From positions 248,001 to 312,000 of the forward strand of contig NZ_CP071463.1 of NCBI RefSeq assembly GCF_017352095.1: a stretch of DNA of 64,000 nucleotides, given 5' to 3'. Every line of letters begins with the position of its first letter. Positions within the stretch are counted from its first letter, which is position 1. The notes under the pieces are model-generated. The model saw only the letters and a program-made list of their open reading frames with translations, ran no database searches and was not told the DNA's origin. A program made the translations under genes and the position numbers. Positions 38,505-45,458 of the stretch are shown in pieces. The DNA comes from Natrinema longum (GTDB lineage Archaea; Halobacteriota; Halobacteria; Halobacteriales; Natrialbaceae).

Positions 38505-39383
38505 TCAGACTACGTCGGAAATGCGCGAGTAATCAATAGCTTGTGTTCGTAACTCGATACTGTCGTCATACGCGTTGTAGATACTCTTGTCGATCTTCCC
38601 CCCATCTCGACCGTCATAGTGCATTTCATGCCACCAAATATGCTTCAGACACTGTGCATCGTTGAGGCCACCGATGTCAGTCGTGACCTTGAACAGGACC
38701 TCGGCAAAGTGGAGATCATCTAGTGCCGGCATCTCTGGGTCTGGGTTACTCGGCGACGGGTATTCGTTCGGGAAGACGATCACATCAGGGATGACACGAC
38801 CGTTCTCCGTACGGGCACCTGCTGGCGGGTCGCGGATAATCATATACCGTGGGTCCTCATCTTGGTTTAGTCCCCATCGCACTGCTCGGTTGATTACCTC
38901 GTTCAGCCGAGATGCGGGAGATTTGGTATTGCGAGCGTTCCGCTCGCTCCACAACATCAGGGTGTCAGTATTGGTTGGAACGAGCAGGTGACCGATACTC
39001 TGCCCTTCACCGCCCTTCACGTCCATCGCAAAGATCTCTCCAGTGTTCTTGAGTCGACCTTTGAAATCGATACGTTCACTCCCACGCTGATCGGTGAACG
39101 AGAGGTATCCTTGCTCCTCGGCGGGTTCCAAGAAAACTTCGCGGACAATGTCCTCGTTATCCGCGCCGTGTGACTGTCGGAAGCTTCCACCGAGTGAGAA
39201 GACCGCATCTTTGAGTTCGCGTTGGTAGTCACCGGCGTCAATGTTCCAATCCTCAAATACCTCTGGGTGCTCATTCCCGAGCGATTTGATGAGTTCCTTC
39301 ACCTCATCCAAGGTCTGTTCACGCTCGTCGGTACCTAAATCGGTAAATCCGAGTGTATCTGTCCAAGGGTTATTGTCAGTCAC
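38505..39383 (-). CDS. Putative PD-(D/E)xK restriction endonuclease
   Basis: 292 residues starting GTG at 39383 (MTDNNPWTDTLGFTDLG). The predicted catalytic core is RIDFKGRL...IFAMDVKGGEGQSIG, with Asp106, Asp121 and Lys123 in the PD-(D/E)xK pattern. The rest has no known domain, as is usual for type II enzymes. Context is decisive: 204 bp downstream of an active beta-class DNA methyltransferase and in the same direction. Local GC is lower than the flanking core, suggesting transfer. Recognition site unknown. Confidence 0.75.
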   Translation of the reverse strand: MTDNNPWTDTLGFTDLGTDEREQTLDEVKELIKSLGNEHPEVFEDWNIDAGDYQRELKDAVFSLGGSFRQSHGADNEDIVREVFLEPAEEQGYLSFTDQRGSERIDFKGRLKNTGEIFAMDVKGGEGQSIGHLLVPTNTDTLMLWSERNARNTKSPASRLNEVINRAVRWGLNQDEDPRYMIIRDPPAGARTENGRVIPDVIVFPNEYPSPSNPDPEMPALDDLHFAEVLFKVTTDIGGLNDAQCLKHIWWHEMHYDGRDGGKIDKSIYNAYDDSIELRTQAIDYSRISDVV

Positions 39384-39587
39384 ATAGAATCCCGCACACT
39401 GCGACGGGATAACCTATGAATCCGTGATCAGCTAGGCATAGTCACTCACCTATGTGACGAAGAAAATATAGTTGTACTTCTGTACTCTATAATACATTAT
39501 ATCTTGTAGGACGAGTATCGCTTACTTTTCATAGAGGTCCTCTGAATCTCTTCGATTGCGATTCTCTAAAGTGAGAATATTAGCTGT

Positions 39588-40370
39588 TCAGAATTCAGTT
39601 AATGAGCGTTGCTGTAACGACGCGAGCCGCTCAGCGACAACTTCACGGAATTCCTCATTCAGTTCGTAGCCGATACACTGACGGTCAAATTCGAGAGCGG
39701 AAACCGCGGTTGTCCCACTTCCGAAGAACGGATCAAGCACCGTCTCGCCGGGATCCGTCGAGACCTTGACGATGCGGTTGATGAGCGAGGTTGGGTAGGG
39801 GGCCTTATGTAACACGTTCTGACCCGCAGTCCCTCGCTTCACCGGGTGCCGCCACAGATTACCGAGACGGTGTTTTTCCGTGACAGCAGGGTCTTCGAGA
39901 CCGTTTTGTCCCTCTTCTTCTCGGAATTTGTGGTTCTTCGACTTTGATAGGTAGACGACGTATTCCTTCTTGTTCACCACGTTGCGATCAGTCATGCCAG
40001 CGATGGCGGTCGGCTTGTACCAAGTGACCATATCTTGGAGTACGAACCCAATATCCTCGGCCCGTTCAGCGATATGGTATGGCAGGAATTGGAGATCGCC
40101 CCGCTCCATTACGGTGTCAACAACTACCCACATCGTTCCGTCATCACGCAGTACATCGTAGCACTCACTCCAGACAGCCTCCATCCGGTCGTGGTAGTGT
40201 TCGTACGACTCATCGGCCGTCCCGATTTGATTCTCGTGTCCGTAGTCTTTGAGATCCCAATAGGGTGGTGAGGTGATAACCGACTGTACGGTCCCGTCCT
40301 CGACCTCAGTCATCTCTTCGCTTGTACTCCAGTGTACTTCGAGGTCGTCGATTTCGTCTATGTCGAGCAT
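39588..40370 (-). CDS. Beta-class DNA methyltransferase of the R-M module
   Basis: A 260-residue DNA amino-methyltransferase. Motif IV VITSPPYWDLKDYG (TSPPYW at 33-38), then DGTMWVVVDTVMERGDL, KKEYVVYLSKSKNHKF, and SAM-binding motif I LDPFFGSGTTAVSALEFDRQCIGYELN (DPFFGSGTT at 213-221). The order is beta class, typical of N4-cytosine and some N6-adenine enzymes. Its ATG immediately follows the stop of the upstream paralogue, so both should be made together. Protects DNA from the downstream nuclease. Confidence 0.9.
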   Translation of the reverse strand: MLDIDEIDDLEVHWSTSEEMTEVEDGTVQSVITSPPYWDLKDYGHENQIGTADESYEHYHDRMEAVWSECYDVLRDDGTMWVVVDTVMERGDLQFLPYHIAERAEDIGFVLQDMVTWYKPTAIAGMTDRNVVNKKEYVVYLSKSKNHKFREEEGQNGLEDPAVTEKHRLGNLWRHPVKRGTAGQNVLHKAPYPTSLINRIVKVSTDPGETVLDPFFGSGTTAVSALEFDRQCIGYELNEEFREVVAERLASLQQRSLTEF

Positions 40371-41117
40371 CTATCCACTCACCTCTTCACGTAGCACAGT
40401 CACATCAAGTGGCTCAGCAACGCGCTCCTCATCGGAGACCATATCTTCAATTTCGTTTGTCCAGAGTGTATAGACGGTCTCGCTTTCGTTGGTGCCCACG
40501 AGAACGCACCGACGGAGCGCCTCACGGAGAGGGATTGGCTCAACTTCATCGACCTCTTGGTTATCGGTCTGCGTGCGATCTTCATCTAGCCAGACGTTGC
40601 CTGGGTCCTTGCCGTCAGGGTTGTATCGACGGACCTTGGTGTTGTGGTAGGCGCTGTTACCTTCCTTGCGTTCGCCGCCCCACTCGTTGCCCTCGTATAC
40701 GTGTGCCACACGGATGTCGTCCTTGTGGAACTGATATTCGCGTTTATCTTTCACGAAGAACAGGATTTCATCATATGCCGATTCCATATCGGCTCCACGG
40801 TCTTCCCATCGGTGGACTGTTATCGTGTTCTTCAGGGTGAGTCCTGATTCTTCTCTGGCGTAGTCAGCTACTGCCATCGCAATAGGCCACATACGGCCGT
40901 CTCGGTACGCGTTCGGCGCGACGACCCATAGCGTCTCGGTCGGGTCCATGCGCTCGTAGATAGCGCTCCAGACTCCCTCCGTCGCGCTAAGAACATCTTC
41001 CTGGGTGTCAGCATCTGACACCACTCTTTCGAGATCAACGAGGTACATCTGATTGGTCTCTCGTTTACCCTTTGGGGCACTTGACTGTTGCATCATCTTC
41101 ACAGATAGGTAGGACAT
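40371..41117 (-). CDS. Catalytically dead methyltransferase paralogue
   Basis: About 248 residues from ATG 41117. It aligns by eye along the adjoining active methyltransferase: ETLWVVAPNAYRDGRMWP with GTMWVVVDTVMERGDLQ, YDEILFFVKDKREYQF with KEYVVYLSKSKNHKF, GNVWLDED with GNLWRHPV, and CVLVGTNESETVYTLW with VKVSTDPGETVLDPFF. Catalytic TSPPY is replaced by VDLER and the SAM motif DPFFGSG by TLWTNEI, so it should neither bind SAM normally nor catalyse. A non-catalytic DNA-binding or scaffold subunit is the best inference. ATG 41117 lies 26 nt from a TATA-like TGTATAC, preferred over the TTG at 41168. Confidence 0.8.
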   Translation of the reverse strand: MSYLSVKMMQQSSAPKGKRETNQMYLVDLERVVSDADTQEDVLSATEGVWSAIYERMDPTETLWVVAPNAYRDGRMWPIAMAVADYAREESGLTLKNTITVHRWEDRGADMESAYDEILFFVKDKREYQFHKDDIRVAHVYEGNEWGGERKEGNSAYHNTKVRRYNPDGKDPGNVWLDEDRTQTDNQEVDEVEPIPLREALRRCVLVGTNESETVYTLWTNEIEDMVSDEERVAEPLDVTVLREEVSG

Positions 41118-41181
41118 TACCAATGCATAGGCGCTTGGGTATACATCGCTTATCAGCAATCCATGCAAACCCCAGGACGAG
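41118..41181. promoter_or_regulatory. Divergent promoter of the R-M module
   Basis: 64 bp between the dead methyltransferase (minus) and wHTH regulator (plus). The minus-strand TATA-like TGTATAC spans about 41138-41147; a weaker plus-strand CTTATCA lies about 29 nt before ATG 41182. The boxes are nearly adjacent, so one bound regulator could control both directions. Confidence 0.5.
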
Positions 41182-42143: not shown

Positions 42144-42713
42144 CTATTTCTCCTCGGTTCGGTTCAAACGCACACCCAGTACAGCGGTAGCGACGGCTAA
42201 CAAAACCATCCAGACGACTATTGCCGCACCGATGGCGAATAGGAGATTGGGCCCAGCGAGGGCAACAAAGACATCCAGATACCGGACTATGTAATGGGCT
42301 ACCCAGAGAAAGAGGAGCCCCGCAATGATGTAGAGTCCTGTTCCGACTGCCCTTCTCGGAGACTCCTTTCGTACAAGGAACGCGAACGTGAGCACGGTGA
42401 TGACCGGGAATGGAAGTAGCGACTCCCACTGTAAGTTTATAATTGCATAGCTCACGTATCCAGCGACCAGCGCAGTCCCGACCGCTGCGATCGTCACCCA
42501 CACGTCTGTTGGCAGATACCCGTCATCGGATGGCGGTGCTCCCGCCCCCGCCTTCCCGCTCGAGCCGTCTGTCGCCACTTCCTTCGCGGCAGTTGCCTCA
42601 GACTGACCGCTGCCGCATTCAGGGCAACTGTGCCCGCTCTGGACGGTCACACCGCAAGCCTGACAATCCCATATCATCTTTGATTCCTCCGAGAGCGATT
42701 CATATTCGCTCAC
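42144..42713 (-). CDS. Zinc-ribbon membrane protein
   Basis: 189 residues from GTG 42713, or 177 from ATG 42677 (MIWDCQACGVTVQSG). The N-terminal zinc ribbon has CQAC and CPECGSG; four hydrophobic segments follow (VWVTIAAVGTALVAGYVSYAI, LLPFPVITVLTFAFLV, GLYIIAGLLFLWVAHYIV, LLFAIGAAIVVWMVLLAVATAVLGV). Typical of small haloarchaeal membrane proteins in accessory DNA. Function unknown. Confidence 0.72.
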   Translation of the reverse strand: MSEYESLSEESKMIWDCQACGVTVQSGHSCPECGSGQSEATAAKEVATDGSSGKAGAGAPPSDDGYLPTDVWVTIAAVGTALVAGYVSYAIINLQWESLLPFPVITVLTFAFLVRKESPRRAVGTGLYIIAGLLFLWVAHYIVRYLDVFVALAGPNLLFAIGAAIVVWMVLLAVATAVLGVRLNRTEEK

Positions 42714-42802: not shown

Positions 42803-43758
42803 GATCGAACGGCTGTGTTGAATCGCCATACGGCGGTGGATTTCACTGTTTGACGGCCCGCTTGATGTTATAGACGACACACATCAGGGTAATTTCACGG
42901 AACTCTCGATACCAGGTACGCGCTCGCACGGCGTAGCCGAGCGAGCGCTTGATTGCGGAGTTCACGGTTTCAGTCATTGATCGCTGAGCGTACCGATTGT
43001 CGTCAATACGAGCGTTGTGAGCGTGATCGTATGGGGCGAAGATCCGATGTTTGATCAGCGGGCGAATGTCGAGTTCACGGAGCTGGTCGCGGAGCGCTTG
43101 CTTATCGTAGCCCTTGTCAGCGGCAAGGGACCGGAGATCGCCCGCATTCCGGCGGGCGATCTGCTCACAGAGGTCCGCGTCGCTTCCTTCTAACGTTGTT
43201 GAACAGTGGAGATCAAGAACGGCTTGCGTTGCTGTATCGACGAGTTTTGTGACTTTGAGCGTTTGAACGCGGTAATTCGTTCGGTGGCAGTAGTGGCGGC
43301 TCGCACGATCACGTTCGTAGAATGTTGCGTCGATAGCAGCGTGTTCAGAGGGGTTGTGCAGCTGCGCCGAGTGGCGCAGCAGCACTCGACAGACACTCAT
43401 CTCGATCCGATCAAACGACTTACACAGCGTAGATGGATCGGGGAGATCGGCCACGTCAAGGCCGATCTCCCCTGTTATTTGCGGCATTTCCTTCAACAGA
43501 TCGATCGTCATCCGGTAGGACGTATCGAGGTAAATCCGGAGGCAATGCAGCGAAATGAGGGCATAGTCGGCGAATCCGCCGCCACCAGTCGGGGCGGCGG
43601 ATTCGCCTCGTTCACCCGTAACTCTTTGTGCAATCGAGACGCAACGCTCGGTGAAGCGGGAGATTTGTGTCATGGACAACCAAATTTCCCCGCTTCAACT
43701 CCTTCGATTTACTGACCTTCCCCGACGCCGTCTAGTGATTCAACGCAGCCGATCGAAC
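42803..43758. mobile_element. Complete IS5-family insertion sequence with 8-bp target duplication
   Basis: The element spans 42811-43750 (940 bp). Terminal inverted repeats begin GGCTGTGTTGAATC on the left and, read inward from the right, GGCTGCGTTGAATC. Both flanks carry the direct repeat GATCGAAC (42803-42810 and 43751-43758), a perfect 8-bp target duplication as expected for ISH1-type members of the IS5 family. A single intact transposase fills it. An intact duplication indicates fairly recent, untouched insertion. Confidence 0.92.
42843..43679 (-). CDS. IS5-family transposase
   Basis: A 278-residue DDE transposase. Catalytic residues are suggested at Asp117 (AAIDATFYERD), Asp188 (SLAADKGYD) and Glu237 (RSMTETVNSAIKRSLG). 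The N-terminal region holds the helix-turn-helix, and SLGYAVRARTWYREFREITLMC is the usual IS5 C-terminal signature. Full length and intact, so the element is probably still active. Confidence 0.93.
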   Translation of the reverse strand: MSMTQISRFTERCVSIAQRVTGERGESAAPTGGGGFADYALISLHCLRIYLDTSYRMTIDLLKEMPQITGEIGLDVADLPDPSTLCKSFDRIEMSVCRVLLRHSAQLHNPSEHAAIDATFYERDRASRHYCHRTNYRVQTLKVTKLVDTATQAVLDLHCSTTLEGSDADLCEQIARRNAGDLRSLAADKGYDKQALRDQLRELDIRPLIKHRIFAPYDHAHNARIDDNRYAQRSMTETVNSAIKRSLGYAVRARTWYREFREITLMCVVYNIKRAVKQ

Positions 43759-43892: not shown

Positions 43893-44112
43893 GTGTTCAG
43901 ATAAGGACTGAAAAGTGAGGCGGAGCGTTTTCCGAGTGCTCTATGCCCGAAAACGCTCGCTTCAACGGTTGTTTAGACGAGATCAACTTAGACATTGTCG
44001 AACGAGAAGTGACACATGTGTTTCTCGAACTGTTTTAGCAACGCCGAAGCAGAAACCGCCGACGAGCGGATCAGATCGTTCAGCTCCGCATGGAATCAGC
44101 TTATTTGAACAC
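43893..44112. mobile_element. MITE-like deletion derivative of an IS6-family element
   Basis: Ends GTGTTCAGATAAG and, inverted, GTGTTCAAATAAG form terminal repeats. Inside, ATG 43943 opens MPENARFNGCLDEINLD..., the conserved start of haloarchaeal IS6-family transposases, stopping at codon 32; in another frame FSNAEAETADERIRSFSSAWNQLI ends at TGA 44108, a plausible C-terminus. The middle is missing, leaving about 220 bp mobilisable in trans. Confidence 0.75.
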
Positions 44113-44394
44113 TACCCCGAAAACAAGGAAAGATATTATAGTCAATGAAAGGAATACTTTGTATTTATTGGAGTATAGTACCTCCATAGCGTCACTAGAG
44201 GCATATACGAATAATGACATCACACCAATCAATATATACAACGTAGATAAGATTGGCTCAACTGTTATGAATGCTATTGCTAGTAAGACCATTCCAATTG
44301 CCACTAGTGCTGTGGATAGTTTTCGCATACGATCGTTCTGAGTGAATCCCATGTAGTTTTCTGTGATTTCAGATATTGTATTCTTATTTAACAC
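44101..44394 (-). CDS. Small three-helix membrane protein, candidate immunity partner
   Basis: A 97-residue AT-rich gene. Helices LSTALVAIGMVLLAIAFITV, ILSTLYILIGVMSLFVYAS and VFLSLTIISFLVFGVVF. It lies just downstream of the Cys-rich precursor gene on the same strand, a usual place for bacteriocin immunity or export helpers; that is inference only. Base composition matches the precursor, unlike the flanking core, so both probably arrived together. Its 3' end overlaps the IS6-derived remnant. Confidence 0.6.
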   Translation of the reverse strand: MLNKNTISEITENYMGFTQNDRMRKLSTALVAIGMVLLAIAFITVEPILSTLYILIGVMSLFVYASSDAMEVLYSNKYKVFLSLTIISFLVFGVVFK

Positions 44395-44495
44395 TATGGG
44401 ACATAGATGTTTTGATTAGATAATATGACCCATTTATAAATCAAATATCGTAAGAAGTTTTATCAATTCATCGGGCTATGAATTATAGCGTAGTG

Positions 44496-45458
44496 TCAGA
44501 AACAACCTCCATAGCTATCATTAATTTCGCCCACATCATCCCAGTCATTTAAGAGAATTCTCTTATCATTTGAAGGTTCATATTCAGAGCATGATGTGTC
44601 ATGATCTTCATAGAAGTTTTCATTTAGAGAAACTTTTGCATCTGTACAACCATGGTCTGGTAAACATCCGTGATTAATTAAATAAGTGAGTCCGCCAAGG
44701 CCTGCGATGCACCCGACACACCCGAGAGGATTACCCATTGCACAACTAGTACATCCCGTAATGACTCCTGTAAATGAGGTTATGGTCTGAATGACACACC
44801 CAATATCACTCAGGGAATTATTCCAGACACAGGCATCAACAACACAACAATTGGAATCGGATGCCGCGCTGGTGAATTTCTGATCACCTGTTTCTGATTT
44901 AATCTGTTCAGAAAAGTCGTTCTCTTTCACTACCACTTCCCTAGTAGATGACGAATGGTTCACTTGACCACCATTCTCATCCTCGTTCGGTTTATATATC
45001 GAAGTACTCCCACTATATCCAAAGAAAGTATAATTCAAATCAGAATTAACCTCGGATTCTTTAGCTTTCTCAAATATTTGAATAGCCGCGTTTGTTTGTA
45101 AACTGTTTTTGGTCGTATTATCTCCAATCCAAGACAAGAAAGCATCTTTTCGATCTTCAAACTGATTATGCAGTTCGATTACTGCCCATTTATACGACCC
45201 TGACTGAGTCGAAGTTTTTCCACATCTTGCACCCGACCAATCTGGTGTCCAATTTCTTCCTTTAGCTTCCTGAAGGACCTGCTTGAAACCGATCTCCTGC
45301 TTGGCCTCTCTAAGAACCTGTTCAATCTTGCTATTTTCTTCATACGTTTCGACATCCACATCACTTGGATCTTTACTCCTTGCTTGAACGGAGCTGGCGC
45401 CCACGATCCCAATGCCTGATGCTGCACCGACTGACTTGAGGATTTTTCTTCTCCTCAT
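44496..45458 (-). CDS. Tat-exported Cys-rich halocin C8-like precursor
   Basis: A 320-residue protein. The N-terminus MRRRKILKSVGAASGIGIVGASSVQA is a Tat signal (RRxK-type twin Arg). Residues 30-200 form a polar, charged propeptide region with one Cys. Residues 204-271 are a compact hydrophobic Cys-rich segment with CCVVDAC, DIGCVIQTITSF, ITGCTSCAMG, GCVGCIAGLGG and GCLPDHGC; about a dozen Cys in all after 200. Halocin C8 is similar in layout: Tat precursor, N-terminal immunity part, C-terminal Cys-rich peptide containing ITGCSAC. Strongly AT-rich relative to neighbours. Homology is inferred from layout and short motifs only. Confidence 0.68.
   Translation of the reverse strand: MRRRKILKSVGAASGIGIVGASSVQARSKDPSDVDVETYEENSKIEQVLREAKQEIGFKQVLQEAKGRNWTPDWSGARCGKTSTQSGSYKWAVIELHNQFEDRKDAFLSWIGDNTTKNSLQTNAAIQIFEKAKESEVNSDLNYTFFGYSGSTSIYKPNEDENGGQVNHSSSTREVVVKENDFSEQIKSETGDQKFTSAASDSNCCVVDACVWNNSLSDIGCVIQTITSFTGVITGCTSCAMGNPLGCVGCIAGLGGLTYLINHGCLPDHGCTDAKVSLNENFYEDHDTSCSEYEPSNDKRILLNDWDDVGEINDSYGGCF

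Follow-up and report, generated by a model that had tools for sequence, protein, structure and literature searches.

Production of halocins is, to our knowledge, reported as almost universal in haloarchaea, and among the few halocin genes known to us that of halocin C8 is the best described. A survey of archaeal toxins published in 2019 by Makarova and others reportedly added members to the halocin C8 family and put forward numerous predicted toxins of archaea, and parts of the wider family treated here may already be contained in it. The precursor of halocin C8, ProC8, is composed of HalI and HalC8 (models PF22862, Hac8_like_N, and TIGR04449), and HalI is reported to be its immunity part (PMC11509114). 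For other haloarchaeal antagonists the activation of a secreted precursor by a protease has been shown (PMC12893001). The locus described here lies in a stretch of 64,000 nucleotides of the Natrinema longum genome (contig NZ_CP071463.1, positions 248,001 to 312,000), called the window in the following. A first-pass annotation of this stretch had proposed what may be a new microhalocin system, possibly with immunity. A secreted halocin-like precursor and an adjoining candidate immunity protein could indeed be recovered, the halocin C8-like peptide of that proposal could not.

Both reading frames were found where they had been placed, on the minus strand and in the same direction (Table 1), with 101 nt between the precursor gene and the gene of the three-transmembrane (three-TM) protein, which starts with GTG and encodes three hydrophobic segments. 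The sequence TTTATAAA in this intergenic region is a possible promoter element of the three-TM gene. By inspection the precursor has the RRRKILK motif, the hydrophobic stretch and the SVQA site of a Tat substrate, and every cysteine position listed in the first-pass annotation was correct, with cysteines 79 and 319 to be added. Measured by what defines a microhalocin, the Tat export signal is present, and the region from residue 202 comprises 119 amino acids and lies above the limit of 10 kDa unless it is trimmed. Searches of Pfam and NCBIfam gave no significant match for either the 320-residue precursor or the 97-residue protein.

Table 1. Features of the gene pair in the window (positions of the 64,000-nucleotide stretch).
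Feature	Position	Strand	Evidence
Tat-exported precursor, 320 aa	44496..45458	-	open reading frame; relatives in other haloarchaeal genomes; full-length homologue with 43% identity
Tat signal peptide, residues 1-26 (RRRKILK ... SVQA)	45381..45458	-	direct reading of the sequence
HalI-like pro-domain, residues 33-134	45057..45362	-	profile-profile match to C8-like pro-domains, P 5e-10; AlphaFold
Polar low-confidence linker, residues 136-201	44856..45053	-	pLDDT mostly <40
Cys-rich C-terminal toxin candidate, residues 202-320, 12 Cys	44499..44855	-	Cys conservation; kinship with short type, P 7e-8
Possible TATA box of the three-TM gene, TTTATAAA	44433..44440	-	read in the 101-nt intergenic region
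Three-TM protein, 97 aa, candidate immunity protein	44101..44394	-	homologues adjoin the precursor in L066 and L078; family-wide linkage of small TM reading frames

The base composition of the two genes (GC 0.417 for the precursor gene and 0.350 for the three-TM gene) contrasts sharply with that of the flanks (about 0.65), as had been noted. Taken by itself it does not show a recent transfer into this genome, and low GC was rejected as proof of one, because it is common to all family members: precursors range from 42 to 48% in hosts with 62 to 68%, the canonical halocin C8 gene having 62%. A tRNA-anchored island was rejected as well, there being no tRNA between 34 and 50 kb in the window. Several other features surround the pair. 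An IS5-family element (42810-43750, transposase 42843-43679) is absent from a conspecific genome, and the matches on its two sides overlap by 9 bp, which resembles a target duplication. A protein of 189 residues (42144-42713), which has four TM segments and, at its N-terminus, a putative zinc ribbon, is encoded in a stretch conserved in the conspecific locus with 96.5% DNA identity. A lower-GC stretch (38505-41168) holding adjacent N6/N4 DNA methylase genes (39588-40370 and 40371-41168) and a reading frame of 292 amino acids is possibly a restriction-modification locus.

Part of the earlier description of the protein as a halocin C8-like precursor holds for the pro-domain, in a remote sense. 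When compared without the signal peptide, the pro-domain profile of the family matched that of halocin C8-like pro-domains with a probability of 96.6% (P 5e-10, score 65), where 200 column shuffles reached at most 14.4 and the reversed profile 14.5. Dropping the three members that diverge most left a probability of 94.4%; the window sequence paired with its nearest homologue gave 38%, and the window sequence by itself 10%. Against a set of three canonical ProC8 sequences, themselves closely related, it was 4.8%. As the link weakens with fewer sequences, the relation seen in these profiles must be called remote, and it depends on the broader C8-like set. The model PF22862 (gathering score 27 bits) found no match at an E value of 10 in the window genome, nor in the family members. 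AlphaFold predicted a strand, a helix-loop-helix and three strands, most of residues 37-107 having a pLDDT of about 80-89, and a stretch resembling W-[IMLN]-G-N-[DNS]-T is kept across the family. Foldseek yielded no match with E below 1 for the pro-domain model among solved structures, and a search of solved structures with the family gave nothing meaningful. The full-length model, calculated from a two-sequence alignment, was poor (mean pLDDT 43.5) and was left out of the fold search. With a combined pro-domain profile HalI-like pro-domains were detected in 67 of 392 genomes. Behind them, at 40 further loci, stand C-termini of halocin C8-like, short C..CxxC..CxxC, double short and some other types, and these loci also include proteins consisting of the pro-domain only, some of them devoid of a signal. 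One such signal-less stand-alone protein, 147 amino acids long, follows a C8-like precursor at a distance of about 180 nt (locus L143, 1014-1457 and 1638-2435) and closely resembles the pro-domain of this neighbour.

The C-terminal peptide showed no profile link to halocin C8. TIGR04449, which requires more than 24 bits, matched neither the window protein nor six relatives nor anything else in the whole window genome, whereas HalC8 itself scored 57-61 bits. Comparison of the Cys-rich region with the halocin C8 domain by hhalign gave probabilities of 0.3-1%, at or near the level of shuffles (score 12.2 with shuffles up to 16.8; with larger sets 15.5 against 13.1 and a probability of 1%). The string ITGCTSC, which had been likened to ITGCSAC of halocin C8, is present; its local match is at chance level (p=0.07 in composition-preserving shuffles, a test whose floor is attained by genuine C8-like members), and it occupies residues 233-239 in the middle of the Cys-rich domain, its HalC8 counterpart being located at the mature N-terminus. 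The sequence used as a query, which we take to be mature HalC8, matched one haloarchaeal genome at 100%. The Cys-rich domain of the window family is instead related to the short C..CxxC..CxxC type (94.6%, P 7e-8, score 47, 60 shuffles not exceeding 12.7), which in turn matches the double type with 96.5%, and none of these three types matches the halocin C8 domain in profile-profile comparison. The region is thus best placed, on its sequence, in a second Cys-rich superfamily which has no detectable relation to HalC8 and is also borne by HalI-like pro-domains. Since all three types stand apart from the HalC8 domain, the HalI-like module carries at least two Cys-rich modules without detectable relation. 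Cysteines 221, 236, 250, and 265 are invariant among 12 aligned members, and the number of cysteines in the region is even in all 12 (8 to 14), these being related sequences whose counts are not independent. The four members that lack cysteine 239 are also the four that lack cysteine 247, a joint loss suggestive of a disulfide linking the two.

The small membrane protein is a regular companion of the precursors. In 244 kb of family loci 12 reading frames of 80-140 amino acids with at least three TM segments were counted, and ten of these, three of which come from near-identical loci, are situated directly 3' of a family precursor or its remnant; elsewhere such frames occur about once per 100 kb. 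Conservation of the partner beside the toxin gene across genomes, a property by which toxin-immunity pairs are recognized, is therewith seen at ten family loci. Exceptions are L070, which has no such frame, L074, where it has 65 amino acids only, and L076, whose partner of 108 amino acids falls just below the criterion. The homologous TM gene of Natrarchaeobius and the precursor gene there are convergent, the partner being kept even where the orientation changes (L066). Homology among the TM proteins joins the window with L066, and L067 with L068 and L072, in agreement with the toxin subclades, while the remaining partners of different subclades mostly have no sequence homology. Two genomes encode TM proteins of type A with no precursor nearby. 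Several precursors of the short and C8-like types likewise have a small TM reading frame downstream; in one C8-like case the partner is a relative of the L075 partner (E 1.5e-5). An export role, which the first-pass annotation had offered as an alternative for the three-TM protein, finds no support, as the precursor carries a Tat signal itself. Two proteins sharing EYTGxNRCxxCT and RGYLVPGTPxLTK (L070, 6613-7527, and L107, 3345-4136) directly follow a window-family precursor and a C8-like precursor, respectively, and possibly represent a shared accessory protein.

Of 125 genomes in the taxonomic family, 16 gave matches to the precursor, several of which are broken or incomplete; a full-length homologue of 43-44% identity was found in Natrarchaeobius chitinivorans AArcht7. 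A scan of genome contigs returned one locus only, and a search of viral contigs and plasmids yielded no relatives. Broken homologous precursors are those of L071 (internal TGA), L076 (split frame), and L077, and the L066 precursor has a stop right behind its ATG, ahead of an ATA codon. Of the precursor the conspecific genome has approximately the last 75-80 codons, a truncated pseudogene with two stops; the three-TM gene is kept there, 89% identical and free of stops. An immunity gene is expected to show such a pattern, in which it is retained although the neighbouring toxin is lost. The dN/dS of the three-TM gene between the two strains was 0.056/0.095, with too few substitutions to prove selection or constraint. 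At the conspecific breakpoint (L078, 9798-10502) another Cys-rich reading frame on the opposite strand is followed by a 68-residue two-TM protein, which suggests that one toxin locus recombined with another.

What the computation shows is a pair of genes, the relation of its pro-domain, a different kinship for the Cys-rich domain, and a conserved linkage. Cleavage, killing, a membrane target, and immunity are inferred. The explanation we favour, with some reserve, is a two-gene antagonism locus encoding a Tat-exported, proteolytically released microhalocin-like toxin and its cognate three-TM immunity protein. The Tat pathway would export a folded precursor with a disulfide-held C-terminal domain, which the HalI-like pro-domain at the N-terminus would hold in an inactive state or prevent from harming the producer. 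A protease outside the cell would then cut the polar linker (residues 136-201, the likely cleavage zone), as halolysins do with other haloarchaeal precursors (PMC12893001). The freed Cys-rich hydrophobic peptide of at most about 119 amino acids, probably a helical hairpin, would kill related haloarchaea, most likely at the membrane, and the adjacent three-TM protein, possibly driven by its own promoter, would protect the producer. The arguments for this toxin-immunity assignment are the pro-domain relation, the even cysteine counts with the paired loss of cysteines 239 and 247, the linkage of the TM proteins and the fit of their types with toxin subclades wherever TM relatives exist, and the broken precursor next to an intact TM gene in the conspecific genome, with further precursors broken elsewhere. 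Counted against it are the remoteness of the pro-domain link and the miss of PF22862, the mostly nonhomologous partners across subclades with the exceptions L070 and L074, the precursor-less type-A proteins, and the weak dN/dS.

A toxin could also be protected against by the HalI-like pro-domain itself, as in halocin C8, leaving the three-TM protein another role, for example in maturation. The relation of the pro-domains, the reported immunity function of HalI in ProC8 (PMC11509114), and the signal-less stand-alone protein just downstream of a C8-like precursor, whose pro-domain it resembles, speak for this arrangement, which we nevertheless hold to be rather unlikely in view of the strong linkage of small TM proteins to the family, of the intact TM gene that outlives a broken precursor, and of the poor fit of toxin-specific immunity with one type of pro-domain serving two Cys-rich modules without detectable relation. 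Less probable still is a secreted Cys-rich protein not involved in antagonism, acting for instance in a surface structure or in signalling. Relatives of the gene are accessory and narrowly distributed, as such a role would allow, but patchy distribution, frequent breakage, low GC, the linked TM protein and the HalI-like pro-domain jointly resemble a toxin locus. In Haloferax HFX_0892 the active fragment released is N-terminal and has two helices, its N-terminal 45 amino acids being those that kill (PMC12893001), and the pro-domain of the window protein likewise opens with two helices. By analogy the helix-loop-helix might be the bioactive part here; we regard this as very improbable, since among HalI-like proteins it is the Cys-rich part that is variable and has even cysteine numbers, and since the activity of HalC8 sits in the C-terminal part. 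That the mature peptide might be a true halocin C8 homologue, as ITGCTSC, the Tat signal and the HalI-like pro-domain could be taken to mean, is scarcely credible given the missing TIGR04449 match, the shuffle-level profile scores and the chance-level pairwise match set out above.

Beyond the putative toxin-immunity pair of the window, it is conceivable, and for the time being a tentative thought, that HalI-like pro-domains are a shared, exchangeable escort or self-protection module of a polymorphic family of Tat-exported haloarchaeal peptides with at least two unrelated Cys-rich toxin folds and two layers of immunity, one provided by the pro-domain, which in some cases stands alone as a protein, the other by a toxin-specific small membrane protein. 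As predicted from its sequence, the window family is a novel variant of archaeal Tat-exported peptide toxins outside the current Pfam and NCBIfam models, and its genes are therefore unannotated. Two questions are opened by it, whether archaeal peptide toxins have dedicated small membrane immunity proteins and which role the HalI domain plays once the toxin module behind it is swapped.

Compared with known systems, the window protein shares with ProC8 the Tat signal, a length of about 280-320 amino acids, a helix-loop-helix pro-domain of remote kinship, and a hydrophobic Cys-rich C-terminus behind it. It differs from ProC8 by a Cys-rich domain with no detectable relation to HalC8, by a much lower GC content of the family genes, and by a separate small TM partner, none being present beside the three canonical-type HalC8 loci inspected (L018, L019, and L023). 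Comparable too are the precursors which combine a HalI-like pro-domain with the short C..CxxC..CxxC module (L012, L146-L148, L153, and L157-L159) and likewise matched no model in Pfam or NCBIfam. They are related to the window family in pro-domain (P 1e-15) and Cys core (P 7e-8), the window family being extended by a CC motif on the N-terminal side and, on the C-terminal side, by a tail of some 50 amino acids that contains two further cysteines. In class II bacteriocin pairs of bacteria the toxin gene adjoins that of a small hydrophobic immunity protein which varies with the toxin. The window locus resembles these pairs in its gene arrangement and is set apart from them by Tat export, an archaeal host and a HalI-like pro-domain.
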